Origin: Fructobacillus broussonetiae
GTDB lineage: Bacteria; Bacillota; Bacilli; Lactobacillales; Lactobacillaceae
Direction: 5' to 3'
NCBI RefSeq assembly: GCF_018437275.1
Contig: NZ_JAAMFK010000001.1
Location: forward strand, 1-64,000
Length of the DNA stretch: 64,000 nucleotides
Of this stretch, positions 1 through 61,240 are shown one piece after another. Made by a program: the position numbers and the translations under genes. The notes below the pieces were generated by a model, which was not told the DNA's origin, ran no database searches, and saw only the letters and a program-made list of their open reading frames with translations. Within the stretch, counting starts at the first letter, position 1, and the number at the start of each line of letters is the position of its first letter.

Positions 1-104
1 TCTTGGGATAATTATACAGTGGACGATGCATAAAATCTGTCCATTTTATCAGCATACGAGCACAGTGTCGGGCTTTTTGTTTTGCAGTTATTGCTTGAGG
101 ATAA

Positions 105-140
105 TAAAAAAGTCAAACCCGGTCCGGGTCTGACTTTTAA
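105..140. terminator. Bidirectional terminator, copy A of the GTCAGACCCG repeat family
   Basis: Near-perfect inverted repeat: left arm AAAAGTCAAACCCGG at 108-122 and right arm CCGGGTCTGACTTTT at 124-138, with one internal mismatch. A-tract on the left and T-tract on the right let it terminate transcription from both sides. It lies just past the 3' end of the minus-strand lactonase gene. The 104 bases to its left hold no gene I can support. Confidence 0.8.
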
Positions 141-1305: not shown

Positions 1306-1330
1306 AAAGTCAGACCCGGACCATCTGACT
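1306..1330. repeat. Repeat family copy B
   Basis: AGTCAGA at 1308-1314 is inverted as TCTGACT at 1324-1330 around CCCGGACCA. It shares the AAAGTCAGACCCGG core with the other copies. It sits between the divergent lactonase and metal-transport genes, so it is not needed there as a gene-end terminator. Confidence 0.6.
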
Positions 1331-5779: not shown

Positions 5780-5822
5780 AAAAGTCTGACCCGAACCCAC
5801 CCGGTTTTGGTCCGGCTTTTTT
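5780..5822 (+). terminator. Terminator of ftsK, degenerate repeat copy C
   Basis: AAGTCTGACC (5782-5791) pairs with GGTCCGGCTT around an inner AACC/GGTT hairpin, followed by TTTTTTG. The left arm resembles the AAAGTCAGACCCG repeat core. Bases 5823-5924 after it show nothing else I can name. Confidence 0.65.
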
Positions 5823-14579: not shown

Positions 14580-14586
14580 ATGGTAT

Positions 14587-14677
14587 AAGTCAGAGGCGGA
14601 CGTGTTTCATTTGCTTCCGCTTCTGGCCAAGCTGTTGGACACCGGCGCCATGTTTGTATCGCGCACGGGTCTGACTT
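14587..14677. repeat. Long inverted-repeat element, copy D of the GTCAGACCCG family
   Basis: Termini AAGTCAGA (14587-14594) and TCTGACTT (14670-14677) face each other 75 bases apart. The right end, read in reverse, is AAAGTCAGACCCGTGCGCGA, the same extended core as the single arms at 49446 and 50496. The inside folds further (GCGGA/TCCGC). It fills most of the rseP-proS gap and ends in TTTTATAAAAG, so it may also terminate rseP. Confidence 0.6.
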
Positions 14678-14743
14678 TTATAAAAGATATTAAACAAAGG
14701 GCATTTGCCCTGTACATAACGATTAAATAGAAAGAAGGATGTT

Positions 14744-16474: not shown

Positions 16475-16505
16475 AAAAGTCGACTCCGGACCGTCGACTT
16501 TTTTG
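16475..16505 (+). terminator. Terminator of proS, repeat-like copy E
   Basis: Perfect arms AAAAGTCGAC (16475-16484) and GTCGACTTTT (16493-16502) around TCCGGACC, then Ts. Layout matches the repeat family with GTCGAC in place of GTCAGAC. Confidence 0.85.
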
Positions 16506-16528: not shown

Positions 16529-19500
16529 ATGGCTTTAAGTCGTAAAGAACAACTTGAAAAATTAATGGAGCAAGCAAAGCTCCCAGATGACTTCAAACCC
16601 GCTTTTAAAGACGCTTTTTTGTCCTACGTTGTCGTTGATCCCAAAGAGAAGACCTGGCGCTTCATCCTCGGGATGGATAACGTGCTGCCCTTTAACGCGT
16701 ACCTAGCCTTTTATCAGGGAATCAAGAAGAACTTTCAGCAGTTAGAAGACGTCTATCTGACAATCCAACCGGAAAAGGGCGGATTTGGCGAAGACGACGT
16801 GCGCGATTACTTTCATTTTGCGTTAAGCAAGACCTCTCTTAATTATGCCCTCACTCAGCAGTTGGCATCGTCGTCCGCTATAACGTTGGACGGTGGGAAC
16901 AAGGTGACGGTGGCGACAGCCGCGACATCACTTGCAGAGGCGTTAACGCCACGGGTGCTCACTGAATTAGCAGGGGTGTATGAAACGTTCGGGCTGTCGG
17001 GGCTGACTTTTGAGGCGAAGGTCGATGACAAGCAGGCAGAAGCTTTGCTTGCGCATTACGGCGTTCACCAGCAGACCATGCAAAACGATATTAATCAGGC
17101 AATCGAGCGAGCCGATAAGGCCGCACCAAAGAAGTCCAAAGAAGGTGTCGCCCTCCGCTTAGGACGCGCCATCAATCCCGATGCTGAAATCACGCGTTTG
17201 GACCAAATCGATGGGGAAGAATCTCGGGTCGTCATCGAAGGATACATCTTCGCCGATGAAGTGCGGACACTCCGTTCAAAGCGTCAACTTTTGACGTTGA
17301 AAATTACGGATTACTCATCATCCATCTCCGCTAAGAAGTTCTCCAACAACGAACAAGACGAAGCTGTTTTCGAGCAGTTGAAGTCCGGTTGCTGGATCAA
17401 GGCACGGGGTAACGTCCAAGAAGACACCTACGCCCGTGAGCTTGTTTTGAACATTTACGATCTTCAAGTCATCGACCACGAAGATCGACAGGAACCTTAC
17501 GAAGGTGAAGAAAAGCGAATTGAGCTCCACGCGCACACGAACATGACGGCCATGGACGCCGTCACGGACTTCGGGCAGGTGGCGAAGCTCGCTAAGAAGT
17601 GGGGCGCTGAAGCGCTCGGTGTCATGGACACTGGAAACGTGCAGGGGTACCCGCAGGCGGTCGCTGCTGGTCAGAAGAATGATCTGAAAATCATTTATGG
17701 AATGGAAGCCAACGTCGTTTCGGACGGGGACCCCATTGCCTTCAACACCACCGACCAAGAAGTCCAAGATAAAGACCTAACCTACGTCGCATTCGATTTG
17801 GAAACGACTGGATTGTCAGCGGTTTCTGACCGAATCATCGAACTTTCTGCCGTAAAGATGCAGATGGGAAACGTCATTGATAAGTATTCGGAATACATCA
17901 ATCCTGGGTTCCCACTTTCCGAATTTACGACGAACCTGACGTCCATTACGGACGCCATGGTCGCAGATGCCAAGCCAGAACAGGTTGTCATCGACAAATT
18001 CCGTGAGTGGATTAAGGGATCCGTTTTGATCGGTCACAACGTGACGTTCGATGTGGACTTCTTGAATGCTACTTACGCTCGTTATGATGAGGGGCCAATC
18101 GAGGAACCAGTCATCGATACCTTGCCACTGACACGTTGGTTGCACCCGGATTTCAAGTCCTATCGTTTGGGAACGTTGGCCAAGAAGTTTGGTATTGAGC
18201 TCGAACAAGCTCACCGTGCCATTTACGATGCCGAGACGACTGGTCACCTGGGTTGGAAGCTGTTGAAGGAAGCCAAGAAGGAATACGACTTGGACAACAT
18301 CAACCAGCTAAACGACCACATCTTAGACGGTGAGGCCTGGCGTCACGGAAGACCATTCCACGCTTCCATCCTTGTTCAAACCGCAGAAGGGTTGAAGAAC
18401 CTTTACCGTCTGGTTTCTGAATCAAACGTTTCTTATTTCAACAAGGTGCCTCGTATTCCACGTTCCGTTTTGCAAAAGTACCGCGATGGCTTGATTGTCG
18501 GATCTGGTGATACCAGTGGTGACTTGATTGTGACTCTGATTGAAAAGGGATACGACAAAGCGAAGAAGAAGGCTGATTTCTACGACTTTATCGAAATCAA
18601 CCCACTTCCTAACTATCAGCCAATGCTCGATACAGAGTTGATTGCAAACCCAACGAAGCTTCAGGAAATCATGAAGCAAATGGTTCAAATCGGTGATGAA
18701 CTCGGTAAGCCGGTTGTTGTGACGGGGGACGTGAAGTATACGAACCCCGAAGATCATATTTACCGTGACATCCTGATTGGCTCGCAACCAGGTAATCCGC
18801 TGAACAAGACGGCACTGCCACACGTTTACTTCAGAACAACGGAAGAGTTGCTTGAAGAATTCAATTTCTTGGGTGAGGATAAGGCCAAGGAAATCGTCAT
18901 CGACAACACGCACAAAGTGGCCGACATGTTGGATGACATTGTGCCACTGAAGTCCGGTTCGTACCCACCACAGATTCCAGAGGCCGGAGACGAACTTCGT
19001 GAGAAGACATTGACGGCCGCTAAGAAGGCGTACGGAGATCCAATCCCTGACTTGATTCAAGAACGAATTGACAAGGAATTGAAGTCAATTATCGGAAACG
19101 GTTTCGCGCCTCACTATATGATTTCGCAACGCTTGGTTGCGAAATCGAATAAGGACGGCTACCTGGTTGGTTCCCGTGGTTCCGTTGGTTCTTCCTTCGT
19201 TGCCACGATGTCTGGAATCACGGAAGTTAACCCGCTGCCACCGCACTACCGGTCAGCACACGGGGATTACTTTGAATTGGCTGATCCAAAAAAGTACGGT
19301 TCTGGTTACGATTTGCCTGATAAGGAAGATCCAAATCACCCGGGTGAAATGCTCATTGGTGACGGACACAACATTCCCTTTGAAACCTTCATGGGATTCT
19401 CAGGAACAAAGGTGCCCGATATCGATTTGAATTTCTCTGGTGACTACCAGGCCATCGCCCACGATTACATGAAAGTCATGTTCGGGGTAAAAAAGGTTTT

Positions 19501-27939: not shown

Positions 27940-30627
27940 ATGAGTAAAAAAATACTATTAATCGATGGAAACTCGCTGGCCTTTCGTGCCTTTTACGCGA
28001 TGTACCAACAGCTTGACCGAATGGTCACCCCAGAGGGCCTGCACACCAACGCCCTTGTTGCCTTTAACAACTTCTTGGAGTCCATCGTTTTACCAATGCA
28101 ACCCGACATGGCTTTAGTCGCCTGGGATGCGCGTTCCGGTAAGGAGACTTTCCGTGGCGACTTGTACGAAGAATACAAATCTGGCCGTGATAAGGCACCA
28201 GCGGAATTTAAGGAACAATTCCCTTACATGCGAGAAATGGTGGCGGCCCACGGGCTTCACAATTACGAACAAATTGGCTTGGAAGCAGACGACATCATTG
28301 GAACACTTTCCCGTGTTGGAATGGCTGCCGGAGATAAGGTAATCATCATTACCGGTGACCAAGATTTGACGCAATTGGCAACCGACGACGTGACCGTTAA
28401 GATCACGAAGAAGGGGGTTACCCAAGTTGAGGTTTATACGCCGGACTTCATCATGGAAAAGTTCGGTATTACTCCGGCTCAAATCATTGATAAGAAAGCC
28501 TTGACCGGCGATACTTCTGATAACTATCCTGGTGTTACCAAAATCGGTGAAAAGACGGCTTTGAAGCTCTTGAAGGAATACCATGACTTGGATAACCTTT
28601 ACGCTCATGTCGATGAGATGAAGCAGTCCAAGATGAAGGAAAACCTGATTAACGATAAGGAAGTGGCATACCGTGCTCAAAAGCTTGCCACGATTATCAC
28701 CGATGCCAAGCTTGAAATCGGATTGGATGACATTGAGTATCACGGACCAAAGACGGCTGGATTAGTTGATCTCTTCGAAAAGTTGCACTTTAAGCAGGCG
28801 TTAACAAAGGTTCGGGCTCACCAGCTGATTGACCAAGACGATGACAGCGCCGACACGTCAATGGAGCAGGCCCACTTTAAGCCTGTTTCCGAGTTAACGA
28901 AAGATGCTTTAAATAAGCTGGTTAAGGAAGACACATTGGCCTTCCAAATCGAAACGACAGGCGATAACTACCACACGGCTGACCTCATTGGTTTTGCGCT
29001 TGGAAACGATAAGGTTGGCTACTTTGCTTCCCGCGATTTCTCACTCTTTGAAGAAGACGGGATGAAGCAAATTGTGGAAGATGAAAACATCAAGCTCCAA
29101 CTCTTTAACGCTAAAGAGCACTGGGTTTTGGCTCACCGTCTGGGTCTGACTTTGGCAGGGGTAGATTTTGACTTCTTATTAGTTGCTTACTTGTTGGACA
29201 CGGTCGGAAACGACAACGTGCTGTCCACTTTGGCCGGTCGCTTCGACCACTACTTGCCAGACGATGAATCCGTTTATGGAAAGGGTGCTAAGTTTGCCAT
29301 TCCAGAGGAAAAGACGGTTGTCTTAGACCACATCGGGCAAAAGGCACAAACGGTCTTTGCACTGCGCGACCAAGCTTTCTCAGATTTGGACGAGCATAAG
29401 CAAACCCACCTCTACCACGACATTGAATTACCATTGTCCTTCGTCTTAGCCAAGATGGAAGCACAGGGATTCAAGGTGAACGAAGAACGCTTGGCCAAGA
29501 TGGGTCAGGAGATGGAAGAACAAATTGCCTCCCTCAAGGAAGAAATCTTTGCGATGGCAGGCGAGGAGTTCAACATCAACTCAACCAAGCAGTTGGGAAC
29601 GTTGCTCTTTGAAAAGATGGGCTTGCCTGTCATCAAGAAGACGAAGACGGGCTATTCAACGGCCGTTGAAGTGCTCGAAAAGTTGGCGCCTCAGGCACCA
29701 ATTGTCGACCACATCTTGCAGTACCGTCAGTTGGCAAAACTTAAGTCCACTTATGTGGATGGGCTGCTTGCCGTTGTTGACCAGCAAGATCAGAAGGTTC
29801 ACACGCGCTTCTTGCAGACGCTGACGCAGACTGGTCGTCTGTCATCCGTTGATCCAAACTTGCAAAACATCCCAATGCGAACGGAAGCCGGTCGAAAGAT
29901 TCGCCACGCCTTTGTGCCATCACACGAAGATTGGGAAATCTTTGGTGCTGATTACTCCCAGATTGAATTGCGCGTCTTGGCCTCTATTACGGAAGACCCA
30001 GCCATGGAACACGCTTTCGTGGAAGACCATGACATTCACGCGGAAACCGCGCGAAAGGTCTTCGGACTGGGTGACGATGCAGAGGTTTCTTCTGACCAAC
30101 GTCGAACAGCAAAGGCGGTTAACTTTGGAATTGTTTATGGGATTTCAGATTACGGTTTGTCAAAGAACCTGAACATTGCACGCAAGGATGCCAAGTCCTT
30201 CATCGATACGTACTTCCAGGAGTTCCCGAAGATTCACGACTGGATGAACGCCATCAAGGAAAAGGCACACAAGGATGGCTTCGTTGAAACGATTGAACAC
30301 CGTCGTCGCTACTTGCCTGATATTAACGCCAAAAACTTTAACACGCGTTCCTTTGCGGAACGGACGGCCATGAACTCACCAATTCAGGGTTCAGCCGCTG
30401 ATATTATTAAGATTGCGATGATCAAGGTTGATCGCGCACTGAAAGAAAAGAATCTGGAAGCCAAGATGCTCGTGCAGGTGCACGATGAATTGGTCTTCGA
30501 ATGTCCGAAGGAGGAATTAGAAACGCTCCGTGAAACGGTGACCCAGGTCATGGACTCTGCCGTTAAGCTTGCGATTCCTTTGAAGGTTGAATCTCACTCA
30601 GGTCCAACCTGGTACGAGGCAAAGTAA
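27940..30627 (+). CDS. polA: DNA polymerase I
   Basis: 895 aa. 5'-3' exonuclease domain (LLIDGNSLAFRAFYAM .. GEKTALKLLKEY), an exonuclease-like middle domain, and a family A polymerase (PNLQNIPMRTEAGRKIRHAF; DYSQIELRVLASI; RRTAKAVNFGIVYGIS; VQVHDELVFE). The middle domain lacks the metal-binding acids of a proofreading site: the DxE motif is FQIETTG and the second acid is in NAKEHWVL, so 3'-5' activity is probably lost, as in B. subtilis PolI. ATG 27940 preferred over GTG 27934, which lies within the RBS AAAGAGGTG. Confidence 0.95.
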   Translation: MSKKILLIDGNSLAFRAFYAMYQQLDRMVTPEGLHTNALVAFNNFLESIVLPMQPDMALVAWDARSGKETFRGDLYEEYKSGRDKAPAEFKEQFPYMREMVAAHGLHNYEQIGLEADDIIGTLSRVGMAAGDKVIIITGDQDLTQLATDDVTVKITKKGVTQVEVYTPDFIMEKFGITPAQIIDKKALTGDTSDNYPGVTKIGEKTALKLLKEYHDLDNLYAHVDEMKQSKMKENLINDKEVAYRAQKLATIITDAKLEIGLDDIEYHGPKTAGLVDLFEKLHFKQALTKVRAHQLIDQDDDSADTSMEQAHFKPVSELTKDALNKLVKEDTLAFQIETTGDNYHTADLIGFALGNDKVGYFASRDFSLFEEDGMKQIVEDENIKLQLFNAKEHWVLAHRLGLTLAGVDFDFLLVAYLLDTVGNDNVLSTLAGRFDHYLPDDESVYGKGAKFAIPEEKTVVLDHIGQKAQTVFALRDQAFSDLDEHKQTHLYHDIELPLSFVLAKMEAQGFKVNEERLAKMGQEMEEQIASLKEEIFAMAGEEFNINSTKQLGTLLFEKMGLPVIKKTKTGYSTAVEVLEKLAPQAPIVDHILQYRQLAKLKSTYVDGLLAVVDQQDQKVHTRFLQTLTQTGRLSSVDPNLQNIPMRTEAGRKIRHAFVPSHEDWEIFGADYSQIELRVLASITEDPAMEHAFVEDHDIHAETARKVFGLGDDAEVSSDQRRTAKAVNFGIVYGISDYGLSKNLNIARKDAKSFIDTYFQEFPKIHDWMNAIKEKAHKDGFVETIEHRRRYLPDINAKNFNTRSFAERTAMNSPIQGSAADIIKIAMIKVDRALKEKNLEAKMLVQVHDELVFECPKEELETLRETVTQVMDSAVKLAIPLKVESHSGPTWYEAK

Positions 30628-32620: not shown

Positions 32621-32655
32621 AAAAAAGTCAGGCCCGGACCGGGTCTGACTTTTTC
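32621..32655. terminator. Bidirectional terminator, copy F of the GTCAGACCCG repeat
   Basis: AAAAAGTCAGGCCCGG (left arm, to 32637) and CCGGGTCTGACTTTTT (from 32639), one mismatch. Lies between the convergent glnA and MFS genes and serves both. Confidence 0.9.
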
Positions 32656-37700: not shown

Positions 37701-37727
37701 AAAAGTCAAAACCGGTCCGGATTTTTT
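37701..37727. repeat. Degenerate repeat copy G
   Basis: AAAAGTCAAAACCGG then TCCGGATTTTTTC; the CCGG/CCGG centre and flanking A/T tracts match the family, but the GTC arm is not paired. It sits directly before the parE promoter between divergent genes. Confidence 0.5.
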
Positions 37728-40133: not shown

Positions 40134-42566
40134 ATGGCAGACCGCATTACCGAGCTTTCACTAGAAGCCGTCATGGGCGAGCGCTTCGGTCGCTATTCCA
40201 AATACATCATTCAAGAACGAGCCCTGCCCGACATTCGTGACGGACTCAAGCCTGTTCAGCGTCGTATTTTGTACGCGATGGACCAGGATTCAAACACATA
40301 CGATCACCCATACCGTAAGTCTGCAAAGGCCGTCGGTAACATCATGGGTAACTATCACCCCCACGGTGATTCCTCAATCTATGAGGCCATGGTTCGACTC
40401 TCCCAGGATTGGAAGGTCAGAGAACCGCTCATTGATATGAACGGAAACAACGGTTCGGTCGATAACGATCCGGCCGCTGCCATGCGTTATACGGAATCAC
40501 GGTTGGCAAAGATTTCAGGCGAGATTCTGAAGGACTTGGCCCAAGACACCGTTGAAATGGTCTTGAACTTCGATGACACGACCTACGAACCAACGGTTTT
40601 GCCATCTCGCTTGCCAAACCTCTTTATCAACGGAGCAACGGGAATTTCAGCTGGTTATGCGACGGATATGCCACCGCACAACTTGAAGGAAATTAACGAA
40701 GCCTTGATTTACCTTTTGGACCATCCAGAAGCCACTTTGGCTGACTTGATGAAGTTCGTTAAGGGACCTGACTTCCCAACAGGTGGTATCATCCAGGGAT
40801 TGGATGGTATTAAGCAAGCTTACGAAACTGGTCGTGGCCGCGTCGTTGTTCGTGCCAAGACCGAAGTAAGTCCACTTAAGGGTGGTAAGCAAAAGATTGA
40901 AATCACGGAAATTCCATACGAAGTCGTGAAGTCATCATTGGTCGCAAAGATTGATGCCATTCGCCTGAACAAGGAAGTGGCTGGTATCTCTGAAGTTCGT
41001 GATGAATCCGACCGTGAAGGAATGTCCATTGTCATTGAACTCTCAAAGGATGCTTCCGCCGATGGTATCTTAACTTACCTGTTTAAGAAGACGGACTTGC
41101 AGATTTCATACAACTTCAACATGGTGGCCATTCACGATCAACGACCTGTTTTGGTTACGTTGCAAAATGGTTTGCAGGCCTTCTTGGACTTCCGTAAGGA
41201 CGTCGTTTTGAAGCGTTCTGCCTACGACTTGAAGAAGGCTGAAGCCCGCCAACACATCGTAGAAGGTTTGATCCGCATGTTGTCCATCCTGGATGAAGTG
41301 GTTTCAACCATTCGTTCTTCTAAGAACCGTAAGGACGCTACCCAAAACCTGATGGACGGGTTTGACTTTACCAAGGCCCAAGCGGAAGCCATCGTAACTT
41401 TGCAACTGTACCGTTTGACAAACACCGATGTCACTCAGTTGCAAGACGAGCACGACGCTTTGGCAAAGAAGATTGCCGAACTGCAAAAAATCTTGAACGA
41501 GACGTCTGCTCTGCACGACGTTATCCGCAAGGAATTGCAAGAGGTGATTGATGAATACGCAACGCCTCGTATGACCGAAATTGAAAATGAAATCGAATCA
41601 CTCGTCATCGATACGGCCGTGACCGTGCCAGACGAAAATGTTCGTTTGCTGCTTTCTAAGAACGGTTACGTAAAGCGTTCATCCCTTCGATCATTCAAGG
41701 CTTCCGCCGAAGAAAACGGTTTGGCCGATGATGATCCAATCATCATGGAAAAGACGGTTAACACGACGGAACACTTGTTGGCCTTCACCAACATGGGAAA
41801 CTTGATTTACCGTCCGATTTACGAGATTTCGGAATTCAAGTGGAAGGAACCAGGAGAGCACTTCTCTCAGAGCCTTTCGAACTGGGATCCTGAAGAAGCC
41901 ATTATCTCTGCGATGGTTATCAAGAATCCAGAATCAAAGGACACTGTACTTCTTGCTTCAACAGACGGTTACATTAAGCGTTCAGAAATCGCTGACAAGG
42001 TGCCAAAGTCATACAAGAAGAAGTCCGCAACCGTTATGAAGTTGAAGTCAGACGAAGCACGCGTTGCCGCTGTTTCACTCGTGACGGATTCAAACGACGT
42101 CTTGGTATTGGCCAAGGCTGGATTAGCCCTTCGCTTTAAGGCGGATGAAGTGCCAACTGTTGGTGCTCGTACCGCTGGTGTTAAGGCCATTAAGTTGGGG
42201 GATGGTGATTCTGTTGCCGATGTATTGGCCTTGTCTGACAAGGACACGTACTTGGCCTTGGTAACGAACCAGGGAACCTTTAAGTACTCACGCCTGGATG
42301 AAATTTCTGAATCACACCGTGCCAATAAGGGATTGCAAGTCTTGTCACCACGCAAGACGGTTGATTATGCGATTGCAGCTGCCACTGTTGTGGAAGACGA
42401 TCAAGCGGCCCTTCGAATTGTTACGGACCGGATGAAGACCTTTGATATTCAGTTGCAGGACCACTCGTTGTCAAACCGAACGGCAAATGGTTCAGCGCTC
42501 TTGGATCCATCTTCGGATGGCCAAGCGTCAGTAATGGAAGTCTTAGAATTAAACACCGAGGACTAG
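40134..42566 (+). CDS. parC: DNA topoisomerase IV subunit A
   Basis: 810 aa. Breaks and rejoins DNA with ParE to decatenate daughter chromosomes. QRDR segment HPHGDSSIYEAMVRLSQDW has the usual quinolone-sensitive Ser/Glu pair. The active Tyr is in AMRYTESRL. The C-terminal beta-pinwheel (from ~500) has blade motifs such as GYVKRSSLRSF and GYIKRSEIADK. Cotranscribed with parE (33-base gap). Confidence 0.96.
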   Translation: MADRITELSLEAVMGERFGRYSKYIIQERALPDIRDGLKPVQRRILYAMDQDSNTYDHPYRKSAKAVGNIMGNYHPHGDSSIYEAMVRLSQDWKVREPLIDMNGNNGSVDNDPAAAMRYTESRLAKISGEILKDLAQDTVEMVLNFDDTTYEPTVLPSRLPNLFINGATGISAGYATDMPPHNLKEINEALIYLLDHPEATLADLMKFVKGPDFPTGGIIQGLDGIKQAYETGRGRVVVRAKTEVSPLKGGKQKIEITEIPYEVVKSSLVAKIDAIRLNKEVAGISEVRDESDREGMSIVIELSKDASADGILTYLFKKTDLQISYNFNMVAIHDQRPVLVTLQNGLQAFLDFRKDVVLKRSAYDLKKAEARQHIVEGLIRMLSILDEVVSTIRSSKNRKDATQNLMDGFDFTKAQAEAIVTLQLYRLTNTDVTQLQDEHDALAKKIAELQKILNETSALHDVIRKELQEVIDEYATPRMTEIENEIESLVIDTAVTVPDENVRLLLSKNGYVKRSSLRSFKASAEENGLADDDPIIMEKTVNTTEHLLAFTNMGNLIYRPIYEISEFKWKEPGEHFSQSLSNWDPEEAIISAMVIKNPESKDTVLLASTDGYIKRSEIADKVPKSYKKKSATVMKLKSDEARVAAVSLVTDSNDVLVLAKAGLALRFKADEVPTVGARTAGVKAIKLGDGDSVADVLALSDKDTYLALVTNQGTFKYSRLDEISESHRANKGLQVLSPRKTVDYAIAAATVVEDDQAALRIVTDRMKTFDIQLQDHSLSNRTANGSALLDPSSDGQASVMEVLELNTED

Positions 42567-44268: not shown

Positions 44269-44745
44269 ATGGTACAAGCAAAGAATCAAGCGCTACTAGA
44301 CATTGTCCAACCGATCATTGAGGATCAAAACCTTCTATTGTGGGATTTGATCATCAAGAAGGTTGCTGGCAAAAAGACGGTAGAAATCTTAGTTGATTTA
44401 CCAAATCATGACAACATCTCAATGACTCAAATTACCACCTTTACACAGGCGGTAAACGAAGCTTTGGATGAAGCAGAAGTTGACCCAGTTCCAGGTGAGT
44501 ACATGCTAGACATTGCATCACCAGGTTGGGATCGTTCACTTTCTGAACCCTGGCACTTTGAATGGGCAAAGGAAGCTGACGAACAAATCGCAATTGCTTT
44601 GTTTGCGGCTAAGGACGGTCAGAAGAAGTGGACGGGTTCCATTTCTTCATTAGATGATGCGGGTCTGACTTTGGATGTTGACGGCGAAGAAAAGCGCTTT
44701 AACTTTGACGAAATTGCCAAAGCCGTTGTTTCAATCCAATTTTGA
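44269..44745 (+). CDS. rimP: Ribosome maturation factor RimP
   Basis: 158 aa. Assists 30S assembly. Two-domain fold: N-terminal alpha/beta (LLWDLIIKKVAGKKTVEILVD; PGEYMLDIASPGWDRSL with the SPG signature) and C-terminal SH3-like barrel (KWTGSISSLDDAGLTLDV). First gene of the nusA-infB operon. RBS AAGGAG. Confidence 0.93.
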   Translation: MVQAKNQALLDIVQPIIEDQNLLLWDLIIKKVAGKKTVEILVDLPNHDNISMTQITTFTQAVNEALDEAEVDPVPGEYMLDIASPGWDRSLSEPWHFEWAKEADEQIAIALFAAKDGQKKWTGSISSLDDAGLTLDVDGEEKRFNFDEIAKAVVSIQF

Positions 44746-49431: not shown

Positions 49432-49445
49432 TGTGGAAAATGATA

Positions 49446-49467
49446 AAGTCAGACCCGTGCGCAATTG
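49446..49467 (+). repeat. Single repeat arm H, upstream of truB
   Basis: AAAGTCAGACCCGTGCGCAATTG without the opposite arm (core 49448-49457). Same extended sequence as the right end of copy D (reverse strand) and close to arm I on the other side of truB. Confidence 0.6.
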
Positions 49468-50464: not shown

Positions 50465-50495
50465 ACAGTCCGTGGTTTAGGTGCTTTCCTTAAAA

Positions 50496-50517
50496 AAGTC
50501 AGACCCGTACGTGATTG
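50496..50517 (+). repeat. Single repeat arm I, downstream of truB
   Basis: AAAGTCAGACCCGTACGTGATTG (core 50498-50507), in the same orientation as arm H and matching it at about 19 of 23 bases. No opposing arm nearby. Confidence 0.6.
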
Positions 50518-50690: not shown

Positions 50691-53600
50691 ATGAATTCGA
50701 AAGTTAATCCATACTTAAGCCGAGTAGAAAAGAAAAAGCTCAAGAAAGTGAAGAAAAACTGGGTGGTCGCTTCAGTGCTCAGTTTCGGTGTGTTGGCGGT
50801 CGCTACACCCGGTTCTGTTGGAGCAAACCCAGTAGGTGATAGTGGGACGTACGGTCACACTCCAAGTTCCAACAAGGACGATGAAGCCGATGATACGAAT
50901 AGTGGGGAATTACATGCACTGCCTGAACATTTGGACGCCGGTACCTATACATATAAGAATCCAGGAAATATTGACAAACGTTGGTTCACGTTGACGATGC
51001 AACAAAAAGTAACGATTAACGTCGATGGAAGCGAATATAAGACATTGACCACGCAGCCCACGATTACAAAAACGTTGACTGTTGATAGTGACAATCATCG
51101 TACTTGGACATTTGATGAAGCGAGTCAAGATCCTGATTTACCACAGCGTTATGGCAATCATGCAGGATGGGTACCAGCTGAAAACAATGGTATCCGTTTC
51201 TTGATGTCATCCGTAAACTACAATGGTGGAGCCACTGATTCTACTTATCCAGACGTTACTTCGATTCCAGAGTTAACCGAAGAAAACGTTAAATTTGACT
51301 CCTATACTGCAACCGAGGATGATCAGAATATTCAGTCATTTTATGACGTTCATGAACCTAATGGTTTGTACGGTATTTATAATAATCAATCAGCAGACGG
51401 AGATAACGGTTACTTCCGTCTCGCTGCCGGTAACAACAAGACCTACACACCAGACGAAGCGGGTGAGCACAAGATTCAATTGACGTTGAATCTAAAGTCA
51501 CAGCATACGCACGACGAATCTGACGGCACCCGCAATGTCACCCGCACTCTCCAATACGTGGGACCGGATGACAAACCGCTTGCAAACATGCAAGACAGTA
51601 AGCAGACGGCCACTATCAATAAGACCAAGACAATTTCTGATTTCACCCATAAGCAAATCGGGGATGATAAAGTCAGTGTCGAACAAGGCACATGGGATAA
51701 GCTTCAACCAAAGTCAATAACCGATGATGGCAAGTATGAACTGGATCATATTGAGGGACCTAACGGACAAACATTGAGTGCCGCTGAATTTGCAGCCGTG
51801 GCCGGTTCTGACTTTAACGACCAGAGCCAAGACCAAACCTACACTGCCGTTTACAAGGACCGCGTGAAGACCTTTGGTGCTAATGATAGCAATTTGCCGG
51901 ATAATGTCTCAAAGGCAGACCTCGATAAAACGGTCACGCGCAAAGTGCAAGCGGTCGACCAAGATAATCATGACCAAAACATCGGCGACCCACAGACCCA
52001 AACGCTCCACTTCCAACGCGAGGCGACCTACGACTATGCAACGGGTAGTGTGACCTACGGTCAATGGAAGCCGGTTGACGGTAGTGCGGATAAGTTTGGA
52101 TCAGTCACGAATAATACGACAATTGACGGCAAATATAACTTAGCAGATGATAGCCAAAAGACGGTTGCTGAACAAACACTGAGTCAAGATGAAATCAACG
52201 CCTGGAATAAAGATGATGTTGTCCCAGTTAAGTACGTTCATGCACACGGGCAAGCTGATCAAAATGATTTGACGCGTACCGTTAAACGTGTTGTTCACTT
52301 GAAGGATGCAAAAACGGATGAAGAGTTTGATAACAGCGAAAGCATGTTGCAGAGTCGAACGGATACCCAAGAGTATGTTCGTGATGGTTACCAGGATTTG
52401 GCAACTGGAAAATTTGTACCAGCTTCTGACTGGAAGCTTCCAAATGGGGCACAGGGAATTCAGCAACGTACTGCGCCTGACATGAGTGCTCAGGGTTACG
52501 TTGATGCTCAACCAGGACAGACGGATTCGATTAATCCTTCTCAAGACCAGATTAACGATAACCAAGTCTTCGACCAATGGATTACCTATCAGGAAAAGAC
52601 GGAAAAGTTCGACTCGAATAGTCAAAACTTGCCCGCTGAAATCAAGAAGTCTGACCTCGATAAGACCATCACGCGTACCATTCACTATTACGACGCTGAC
52701 TCAAAGAAGGATATTAACACTGACGTTCAAACCATCCACTTCACGCGTTCTGCAACCTATAACGATGTGACGCATGGGGTCGTCTATGGTGCATGGCAAC
52801 AGGAAGGGGCCTTTAACGGGTTCGATACGCCTACTAACTATGGTGACAATCGTCAATACACCTTAGCGAAGGGCCAACCTCAAACGATTGATTCTGAGAC
52901 ACCCGATGCCAACAATGTCCAAGATGGTCACAACGAGGCCGTGACGATTCAATACAATCACCGCCACGATACCATCACAGATCAGTCACAGTTAAAGCAC
53001 ACTGTTAAGCGAATTGTTCACTTTGAGAATGCTAAGGGTGAACAGGTTGAACCAGATCGTACAGAAACACTAACGTATTCACGCACTGGATACACGGATG
53101 CTGCTGACAATAACAGTGCCCACTTCACTGAATGGAAGGCTGAGGGACAGACTAAGTTTGATTCCTTCACAGCCCCTGATAAAAGCGGTGACGGTTACGT
53201 CATTAACGGGGATAGCAAGGTAGCCGAGTGGACGCCATCCACGCAAGATATCGACAACTCTAGTGTCGACAATCAAACGGTGACGTACAACGATAAAGTC
53301 GGCTCCGTATCCGGCACCGACACCACGCTTCCAACCGCCATCCGCCAAGCCCTGCAGAAGGAAATGGTAAGGACGATTCATTTTAAGTCCGCCACAGATA
53401 GCGAGAAAACGCTGATGAACGACGTGATTGAACGTGTGGACTTCGTGGGACAAGCTGAATACGACTACCACACGAAGCAACTGGTTAACCCTAGCCAAAT
53501 CACCTGGACGCTGGCACATGGCTCAACGTCTAAGTGGGATGACTTCAGCTCCCTTGACTTAAAGGACATTCAACACGATGGAAAGCACTATTCATCTCCT

Positions 53601-54446
53601 AAGCTGACGGCGGGTGATTTGTCAGAGAAGACCTTTAACGCCAATGACGCTGCGACAACCGAAGAAGCCACGGTCACATACGACCCAATGACAGTCGTTG
53701 ATGTGAAGAATCCGGGTAAGGTTGATACGAAGGACCTGCAAAAGACAGTTAGCCGTACGATTGTCTTCCAAGATAAGAAGACGAAGCAGAACATCCAAGA
53801 CCCGATCGTTCAAGAAGTACACTTCCAACGCACGGCGGAAGTAGACGATGTGAACGGAAATGTCATGAACTACGGCGATTGGACAGTCATCGGGGATGAT
53901 GATTTCGCGGCCTTTAATATGCCAAGCCAAGATGGCTATGAAGCACCTAGCCAAGCCAAAGTTAGTGAACAAAAGGGTGTAAAGGGTGATGATAGTAATG
54001 AAACAATCACTATCACTTATGTCAAAAAGGCGGACGAACCAAACACACCAGACACCCCAAACAAACCTGACACACCAAATTCACCAAACTCACCAGACAC
54101 GCCAAATCATCCGGAGGAACCAGTGAACCCTGATCAGCCAAACAATCCAGCTACGCCTGAAAATCCATTCCACAAGTTCTTTACCAATAATAAGAAGAAC
54201 AACAATGTGGAGGAACAGGCCGGCCAGCAAAAACAACAGGCCGAAGAATCAAAGCGTACTGATAAGAAGCAAGACGTTCAGTCAAAGCCTTCTGAGGATA
54301 AGCGCACTGATAAGAAAGCGGACGATTCAGAAAAGACGTCAGCCAACGAAGCTGGCTTTAAACTTGGTCGTACCATCGGGATTACGGCAGCGATTACTCT
54401 TCCTGTAGCGGCGGTTGGTTATTTATTGTTTAAGAAATTCCGGTAA
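50691..54446 (+). CDS. Large MucBP-like repeat surface adhesin, no LPXTG
   Basis: 1251 aa. The signal peptide (~1-46) has KKLKKVKKNWVVASVLSFG, a degenerate KxYKxGKxW-type signal (accessory Sec in many LAB adhesins), and ends SVGA-NP. A ~230-residue unique domain follows. Then come seven modules of 110-135 residues, each opening with a related motif: VTRTLQY (~279), LDKTVTRKV (~410), LTRTVKRVV (~525), LDKTITRTI (~655), LKHTVKRIV (~766), LQKEMVRTI (~887), LQKTVSRTI (~1016). This layout fits mucus-binding (MucBP/Mub B2-like) proteins. A Pro-Asn-Thr-rich stalk (~1113-1160), a Lys/Gln-rich stretch and a C-terminal membrane helix with KKFR tail close it. No LPXTG precedes the helix. RBS GGGAGAAGG. 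It lies between truB and ribF, which are usually neighbours. Confidence 0.85.
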   Translation: MNSKVNPYLSRVEKKKLKKVKKNWVVASVLSFGVLAVATPGSVGANPVGDSGTYGHTPSSNKDDEADDTNSGELHALPEHLDAGTYTYKNPGNIDKRWFTLTMQQKVTINVDGSEYKTLTTQPTITKTLTVDSDNHRTWTFDEASQDPDLPQRYGNHAGWVPAENNGIRFLMSSVNYNGGATDSTYPDVTSIPELTEENVKFDSYTATEDDQNIQSFYDVHEPNGLYGIYNNQSADGDNGYFRLAAGNNKTYTPDEAGEHKIQLTLNLKSQHTHDESDGTRNVTRTLQYVGPDDKPLANMQDSKQTATINKTKTISDFTHKQIGDDKVSVEQGTWDKLQPKSITDDGKYELDHIEGPNGQTLSAAEFAAVAGSDFNDQSQDQTYTAVYKDRVKTFGANDSNLPDNVSKADLDKTVTRKVQAVDQDNHDQNIGDPQTQTLHFQREATYDYATGSVTYGQWKPVDGSADKFGSVTNNTTIDGKYNLADDSQKTVAEQTLSQDEINAWNKDDVVPVKYVHAHGQADQNDLTRTVKRVVHLKDAKTDEEFDNSESMLQSRTDTQEYVRDGYQDLATGKFVPASDWKLPNGAQGIQQRTAPDMSAQGYVDAQPGQTDSINPSQDQINDNQVFDQWITYQEKTEKFDSNSQNLPAEIKKSDLDKTITRTIHYYDADSKKDINTDVQTIHFTRSATYNDVTHGVVYGAWQQEGAFNGFDTPTNYGDNRQYTLAKGQPQTIDSETPDANNVQDGHNEAVTIQYNHRHDTITDQSQLKHTVKRIVHFENAKGEQVEPDRTETLTYSRTGYTDAADNNSAHFTEWKAEGQTKFDSFTAPDKSGDGYVINGDSKVAEWTPSTQDIDNSSVDNQTVTYNDKVGSVSGTDTTLPTAIRQALQKEMVRTIHFKSATDSEKTLMNDVIERVDFVGQAEYDYHTKQLVNPSQITWTLAHGSTSKWDDFSSLDLKDIQHDGKHYSSPKLTAGDLSEKTFNANDAATTEEATVTYDPMTVVDVKNPGKVDTKDLQKTVSRTIVFQDKKTKQNIQDPIVQEVHFQRTAEVDDVNGNVMNYGDWTVIGDDDFAAFNMPSQDGYEAPSQAKVSEQKGVKGDDSNETITITYVKKADEPNTPDTPNKPDTPNSPNSPDTPNHPEEPVNPDQPNNPATPENPFHKFFTNNKKNNNVEEQAGQQKQQAEESKRTDKKQDVQSKPSEDKRTDKKADDSEKTSANEAGFKLGRTIGITAAITLPVAAVGYLLFKKFR

Positions 54447-61175: not shown

Positions 61176-61240
61176 GCAAAGTCAAAGCCGAACAAGGCTG
61201 AAGAAAAGTGCGACAAGAACGGCTTTTTGCTGGACTTTGC
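61176..61240. repeat. Long hairpin upstream of the UPF0223 gene
   Basis: Outer stem GCAAAGTC (61176-61183) / GACTTTGC (61233-61240); inner stem AAAGCCG (61184-61190) / CGGCTTT (61220-61226). The AAAGTC ends recall the dispersed repeat, but GACCCG is absent. It lies in the divergent def/UPF0223 promoter region. Confidence 0.5.

Follow-up and report, generated by a model that had tools for sequence, protein, structure and literature searches.

Known uptake words occur in hundreds to thousands of copies per genome. In the portions of the literature available, they are placed in Pasteurellaceae and Neisseriaceae (PMC7811141; PMC13020248, a 2026 survey of terminators across thousands of genomes). 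The trait set given for DUS and USS in the accessible parts of four further sources (PMC3630211, PMC1852404, PMC1939737, PMC2346458) is a short word, present on both strands, in genes and terminators, originating by point mutation, accompanied by near-matches, with variants in related species and competence genes. By analogy, the Fructobacillus words analysed here can be described by the same trait set. We suggest from sequence comparison that the dispersed word AAAGTCAGACCCG of Fructobacillus broussonetiae is probably that species' own form of a DNA-uptake-sequence-like word, with dialects in this Gram-positive genus. No report of uptake words or competence experiments in Fructobacillus, and no apt report, judged by the titles listed, of a DNA uptake sequence in Lactobacill-, was found in the literature collection searched.

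The F. broussonetiae genome (G000; 1,265,753 bases, 13 contigs, 91.8% complete) was compared with 12 congeners (G001-G012), giving 13 genomes. Site-by-site work was performed on 428 kb of the own genome, with our own simple gene calls. Words were searched exactly, with up to one and with up to two mismatches, the reversed word or letter-shuffled words serving as controls. The codon-preserving null was obtained by shuffling synonymous codons within genes (12 shuffles). ProRS of F. broussonetiae is 82-83% identical to those of F. durionis and F. parabroussonetiae. G009 and L098 (F. parabroussonetiae), and likewise G004 and L084 (F. ficulneus), are probably non-independent samples.

In the window, the whole 64-kb stretch analysed, GTCAGACCCG has 15 matches with up to one mismatch; 100 shuffles averaged 3.36 and never reached 15. 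The places given in the preliminary description as an inverted-repeat family do carry the word or near-matches, each read directly; its list had missed the genic copies at 44660 (exact, rimP), 29141, 41357, 51803 and 16998 (polC). Some copies had been called perfect terminators between convergent genes, which holds for 32622; 108-138 lies at the contig start, with the left neighbour out of view. Two single arms had been claimed, and one full arm was found at each of 1306, 49445 and 50495. The terminator at 16475-16502 has AAAGTC and CCGGAC in common with the word. The frame 50691-54446, host of the word at 51803, is open over 1251 aa and has no NCBIfam match at E 0.001.

Sites of the word and its near-matches in the 64-kb window
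Position	Strand	Feature	Remark
109..137		inverted pair AAAGTCAAACCCG / AAAGTCAGACCCG, terminator-like, near-perfect	direct reading; at contig start, left neighbour not visible
1306..1330	+	exact word between divergent genes and partial second arm	
5781..5821	+	degenerate hairpin with a final T-run, its left arm a word with one mismatch	
14587..14678		rseP-proS intergenic block with two predicted hairpins; 14666-14678 (- strand) is its only exact word	
16475..16502	+	hairpin resembling a terminator, with AAAGTCGACTCCGGAC; 16476-16491 is the gapped form AAAGTCNNNNCCGNAC	
16998..17010	-	one-mismatch word inside polC	
29141..29153	-	one-mismatch word inside gene 27940-30627 (+)	
32624..32652		near-perfect inverted pair, terminator between convergent genes	
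37701..37727	+	degenerate hairpin with AAAGTCAAAACCG	
41357..41369	-	one-mismatch word inside gene 40134-42566 (+)	
44660..44672	-	exact word inside rimP, built by substitutions relative to G006, G007, G008	
49445..49457	+	exact single-arm word between genes	
50495..50510	+	intergenic single arm, exact word; gapped form extends to 50510	
51803..51815	-	one-mismatch word inside gene 50691-54446 (+)	
61178..61193	+	gapped form AAAGTCAAAGCCGAAC between genes	

Genome-wide (1.27 Mb), AAAGTCAGACCCG has 104 matches with up to one mismatch and the reversed word none; with up to two mismatches the numbers are 229 and 26. Exact copies number 32 among the matches listed. The 12 other Fructobacillus genomes hold 1-7 matches each with up to one mismatch (control 0-5). 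The dispersed word is confirmed as real and as more extensive than first noted: it is one sequence family, not a set of independent terminators, as had been proposed, and it is far more abundant here than in the 12 congeners. In the 428 kb, the top over-represented 12-mer, CGGGTCTGACTT, derives from the complement of AAAGTCAGACCCG, and the top 10-mer, GGGTCTGACT, from its core.

The 428 kb contain 48 copies with up to one mismatch, 31 intergenic and 17 genic, where letter-shuffled words give 0.08 and 0.73; copies exceed expectation both between and inside genes. Among the genic copies, 11 of 17 lie on the strand opposite to the gene. At 0, 1, 2 and 3 mismatches we counted 5, 12, 30 and 115 genic sites (0.03, 0.7, 10.84 and 107.5 expected) and 14, 17, 19 and 25 intergenic sites (0, 0.08, 1.11 and 11.7 expected), so the excess shrinks as mismatches rise, both in and between genes. 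The conserved stretch around the word is about 25 bases. T and G are preferred at four and three bases upstream, a feature common to the genic copies of F. broussonetiae, G007 and G008. Under the codon-preserving null, own genes hold AAAGTCNNNNNCG 91 times (21.7 expected), AAAGTCNNNNCCG 50 times (5.05) and AAAGTC in all contexts 328 times (251), and the genic AAAGTC excess sits in copies with a correctly spaced downstream CG. The own genome has 100 copies of the gapped form AAAGTCNNNNCCGNAC and 2 of its reverse; each of the 12 congeners has 0-10 (control 0-3).

The 14587 copy had been described as two-ended, with extra folding inside. Its right end is a full word, but its left end shares just AAGTCAGA; the folding is supported by two predicted hairpins (-42.2 kcal/mol, z -4.18). 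No second whole copy of the 113-bp block (14583-14695) was found in the 13 genomes searched. Partial matches occur at four places in the own genome, all around the right word arm, and in G002 as one 19-base stretch adjoining that arm. The rseP-proS gap holding the block measures 164 bp, against 52 bp in G007. Between rseP and proS, positions 14580-14700 hold a tract of some 110 bp in which two strong hairpins are predicted, and it is missing from the same gap in G007 and in the F. durionis / F. parabroussonetiae loci L081 and L098. The block possibly arose by insertion or is a tract that has diverged.

Orthologues in the stretches fetched were available for 7 of the 17 genic copies, the other 10 having none there. 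Five of the seven align without gaps and differ by substitutions; the remaining two (99365, 232193) border gaps, in stretches that are weak or repetitive. In rimP, the relatives have the ACTTT part in common in an ungapped alignment. The terminator at 32624-32652 has the same gene neighbours in G006, G007 and G008, with the outer AAAGTC retained and a different inner stem. Word-bearing gaps are longer by a median of 94.5 bp against G007 (n=6; +5 for gaps without the word), 49.5 bp against G008 (n=4; +3) and 3.5 bp against G006 (n=4; +2), and the longer gaps in two of the three comparisons are one result that fits insertion. The search for empty sites gave a divided answer: the 14587 gap and some others are longer than in relatives, while the 32624 terminator is present there. 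The REP/MITE-like spread proposed in the preliminary description was not upheld, given the single-copy block, the substitutions at five of seven comparable genic copies and a terminator in place in three congeners.

Sister words were detected in the congeners. Ranked against the codon-preserving null, AAAGTC comes first among 6-mers in G007 (693 vs 227), G008 (471 vs 175), G009 (272 vs 93), G006 (240 vs 100) and G011 (187 vs 60). AAATCAG is the top 7-mer in G001 (208 vs 73), G002 (116 vs 24) and G005 (174 vs 33). Four congeners remain, with a weaker word or none (AAAGTC: G003 105 vs 62, G012 109 vs 70, G004 71 vs 70, G010 82 vs 52); AAATCAG in G010 reaches 34 vs 14, with 32 of the 34 in one orientation. 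AAAGTC ranks 96 in F. broussonetiae by the same null, and in seven genomes of other genera neither AAAGTC nor AAATCAG ranks first. Plain AAAGTC is enriched 2.5- to 3.2-fold in the congeners; the CCG form surpasses this in G007 (29 vs 4.5) and does not in G008 (9 vs 3.35). In a tree from RimP only (161 columns, no branch starred), the AAATCAG genomes group together (85/88), as do the AAAGTC genomes with F. broussonetiae and G003 (88/95).

The named-locus test used 17 of 30 loci of 20 kb, 6 from Fructobacillus and 11 from outside the genus. AAAGTC was found at 31/10.9 in F. durionis and 50/14 in F. parabroussonetiae, and AAATCAG at 31/6.0 in F. tropaeoli and 31/5.9 in Fructobacillus sp. EFB-N1; neither word is clear in F. 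ficulneus (24/18.2) and F. pseudoficulneus (28/16.6). Among the 11 outside loci, the best AAAGTC z is 2.3, and the best AAATCAG z values are 3.9 in Convivina intestini (19/7.6) and 3.8 in Leuconostoc falkenbergense (16/5.9). TGNMAAAGTC was counted over whole genomes: the five AAAGTC genomes have 324-513, F. broussonetiae 201, G003 140, G012 126 and the remaining five congeners 69-87 (reversed control 37-68); 24 further genomes of the family have 19-110. AAAATCAGC occurs 238-352 times in G001, G002 and G005 and 21-85 times in the ten other Fructobacillus. Beyond the genus, in larger genomes, it climbs to 141 in the family and 283 in the order, so this count is telling within the genus only.

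A different set of words was observed in G015, of another genus of the family. In 100 kb (L190-L194), TTGAAGTTCA occurs 22 times and TTGAACTTCA 21 times, with 1.6 expected for each, and in its genes GAACTTCA and GAAGTTCA reach 39 vs 9 and 36 vs 11 under the codon-preserving null. These are possibly a word of its own.

Maintenance of AAAGTC was analysed at sites with identical amino acids, for this word only, with permuted words as the control. AAAGTC was kept from G007 to G009 at 164/229 sites (permuted 2202/4717), from G009 to G007 at 164/217 (2202/4934, rank 1 of 104) and from G008 to G007 at 161/231 (2580/7279). Keeping was weaker from G007 to G008 (161/336 vs 2580/6321, rank 28 of 108) and from G008 to G006 (60/78 vs 1486/2274, rank 11 of 71). 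Into F. broussonetiae the word was lost faster than the control, from G007 (70/291 vs 2143/5447), G008 (50/186 vs 2151/5687) and G006 (27/119 vs 1642/4417), so the own lineage no longer keeps plain AAAGTC. This decay, set against the keeping between genomes sharing AAAGTC, favours the extended word, and we infer that the extended form took over as the active word in the own lineage.

AAAGTC is balanced on the contig strands (390/394 in G007, 272/275 in G008). Sorted by the strand of most genes, G007 has a ratio of 308:421, and all 9 genomes tested show a mild excess on the opposite strand. In G007, enrichment over the codon-preserving null in genes common to at least two genomes is 3.23 and 3.24 for the two gene orientations, so the mild skew there is accounted for by gene composition. 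The word is enriched in all codon phases in G007 and G008, with 1.1 to 1.6 in one of six. Between genes, AAAGTC is also enriched (134 vs 52 in F. broussonetiae, 90 vs 33 in G007, 75 vs 26 in G008), as is AAATCAG in G001 (44 vs 10). Intergenic hairpins armed with AAAGTC number 11 vs 0.2, 6 vs 0.25 and 8 vs 0.05 in the same three genomes, and those armed with AAATCAG 2 vs 0.05 in G001. In genes without a match in the other fetched stretches, enrichment compared with shared genes is 2.61 vs 3.24 in G007 and 2.44 vs 2.62 in G008 for AAAGTC, and lower in G001 (1.84 vs 3.96).

A polar motif of the Chi or KOPS kind is disfavoured for AAAGTC by the strand balance, the mild skew in G007 running the opposite way. 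A separate word, GGGGATG, is over-represented mostly on the strand of most genes (86:16 in F. broussonetiae, 50:2 in G006, 54:15 in G008, 27:2 in G035). The pattern was noted in the 428 kb and in stretches of G006, G007, G008, G009, G011, G012 and G035, and GGGGATG is a candidate Chi- or KOPS-type polar motif.

The ComEA, ComGC and ComEC families match in all 13 genomes, above the curated cut-off in 12/13, 7/13 and 13/13, respectively; ComGC of F. broussonetiae falls below its cut-off (71.4 vs 75 bits). The same families also match control bacteria, E. coli included, so the presence of com homologues is no proof of competence, and we regard them as permissive evidence for it. F. broussonetiae has an open ComEC frame of 783 aa and, at G000:C8:21884-25564 (L021 1884-5564), a run of seven comG-like frames, after which come a methyltransferase-like frame and one resembling acetate kinase. 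Among the seven, the family model identified ComGC only, the rest being named by order and look. Compared with their counterparts in the 12 congeners, putative ComGD and ComGG have identities of 32-39% and 27-42%; the median identity of orthologues overall to G006, G007 and G008 is 79-84%. In G001 (G001:C1:1241552-1242649), the ComEA match is split over two frames, and that to ComEC falls in a frame of 210 aa; the comE genes are apparently broken there, though the AAATCAG word is strong.

On balance we lean towards selective natural transformation, with dialects (AAAGTC, AAATCAG) by species group and a switch of F. broussonetiae to the long bipartite AAAGTC-N4-CCG-N-AC, as an independently arisen Gram-positive counterpart of DUS and USS. 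The Com pseudopilus, ComEA and ComEC would prefer DNA bearing the species' own word, and transformation by kin DNA would accumulate the word and its near-matches via point mutation and recombination wherever tolerated, that is between genes, in terminator arms and inside genes. The nearest relatives would share a word of about TGNMAAAGTC, F. broussonetiae would favour a longer one, about AAAGTCANACCCGNACC, and the other species group would use AAATCAG. Because the longer word would be favoured, old plain AAAGTC sites would decay and extended ones would build up. We infer the role of the word in DNA uptake, the competence of the species and the identity of the reading protein.

Several features expected of uptake words were found: genome-wide over-representation, both strands in and between genes without strong skew, terminator inverted pairs, point-mutation origin with graded enrichment, and competence homologues (ComGC over the cut-off in 7/13, comE apparently broken in G001). 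Counting against the uptake reading, the 104 copies are few for an uptake word, and G001 keeps a strong AAATCAG despite its apparently broken comE. AAAGTC enrichment is nearly equal in the unshared genes of G007 and G008, and recently acquired genes need not show it. The opposite-strand excess in all nine genomes, the weaker keeping from G007 to G008 and from G008 to G006 and the longer word-bearing gaps also count against it.

The persistence of the G001 word alongside apparently broken comE genes would suit binding sites of another genome-wide protein, acting in nucleoid organisation, replication or repair, with a specificity shifted between species groups and with sites adopted secondarily by terminators. 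Such a protein would likewise yield dispersed, conserved, group-specific words without strong strand skew, and we give it an outside chance. It would have to account for some 1.8 additional genic sites per kb (G007: 693 vs 227 in 261 kb coding), and we know of no such protein with this density and a site that differs between congeners; terminator inverted pairs and accumulation by point mutation are traits described, in the available parts of the sources, for uptake words. That mutation or codon-context bias makes the words, without function, is unlikely. A general CAAAG/CTTTG context bias, which AAAGTC overlaps, is present by the same null in F. broussonetiae and its congeners, but genomes with this bias lack an AAAGTC peak (own rank 96; G004 71 vs 70), AAAGTC is enriched intergenically too, and a bipartite word of 13-16 bases in one species is hard to obtain in this way, as is enrichment in all phases in G007 and G008, though it is 1.1 to 1.6 in one of six.

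REP and MITE families are dispersed, partly palindromic, often intergenic and species-specific. A mobile family of this kind would share these features with the word, and would fit the gaps longer than in G007 and G008, the 14587 gap included; we consider it very unlikely. The element is disfavoured by its single-copy body and the substitution origin of 5/7 comparable genic copies, and likewise by the lack of a conserved body past about 25 bases, the graded mismatch series and the 32624 terminator, in place in three congeners with another inner stem. Ordinary intrinsic terminators that share a stem sequence by chance are scarcely credible: several copies are indeed terminator-like hairpins with A- and T-tracts, but 17/48 are genic, which contradicts this account, many intergenic ones are single-arm, and the sister words are enriched chiefly inside genes. 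Genic and single-arm copies thus disfavour ordinary terminators.

If the uptake reading is true, uptake words would have evolved again without an outer membrane, in a Gram-positive genus. Its small genomes, which hold two words and show what look like a switch and losses, would then be a test ground for the origins of uptake words and their receptors, and a dominant shared terminator arm in a genome could be the visible part of an uptake word.

Chi and KOPS are over-represented short genic words favouring one replication strand, whereas the strand preference of AAAGTC is mild (308:421 in G007, against 86:16 for GGGGATG in F. broussonetiae). Unlike REP and MITE families, the Fructobacillus word has no fixed unit with a conserved body among the copies compared (the 113-bp block is single, the conserved part about 25 bases), and its comparable genic copies are made by substitution. 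According to the available text on the USS of Pasteurellaceae (PMC1852404, PMC7811141, PMC1939737, PMC2346458), the Fructobacillus words resemble them in the short core with less conserved flanks, the enrichment dropping with mismatches, no general genome strand bias, terminator use and an orientation bias in genes; they differ in sequence and host phylum. They likewise resemble the DUS of Neisseriaceae, as described in the available text of PMC3630211, in being short, asymmetric, top over-represented words that follow the phylogeny by group, with terminator inverted pairs, genic copies and competence homologues. Compared with the DUS, the host is Gram-positive, the sequence is unrelated, the core, AAAGTC, has fewer bases (6) and the word of F. 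broussonetiae itself is longer and rarer.
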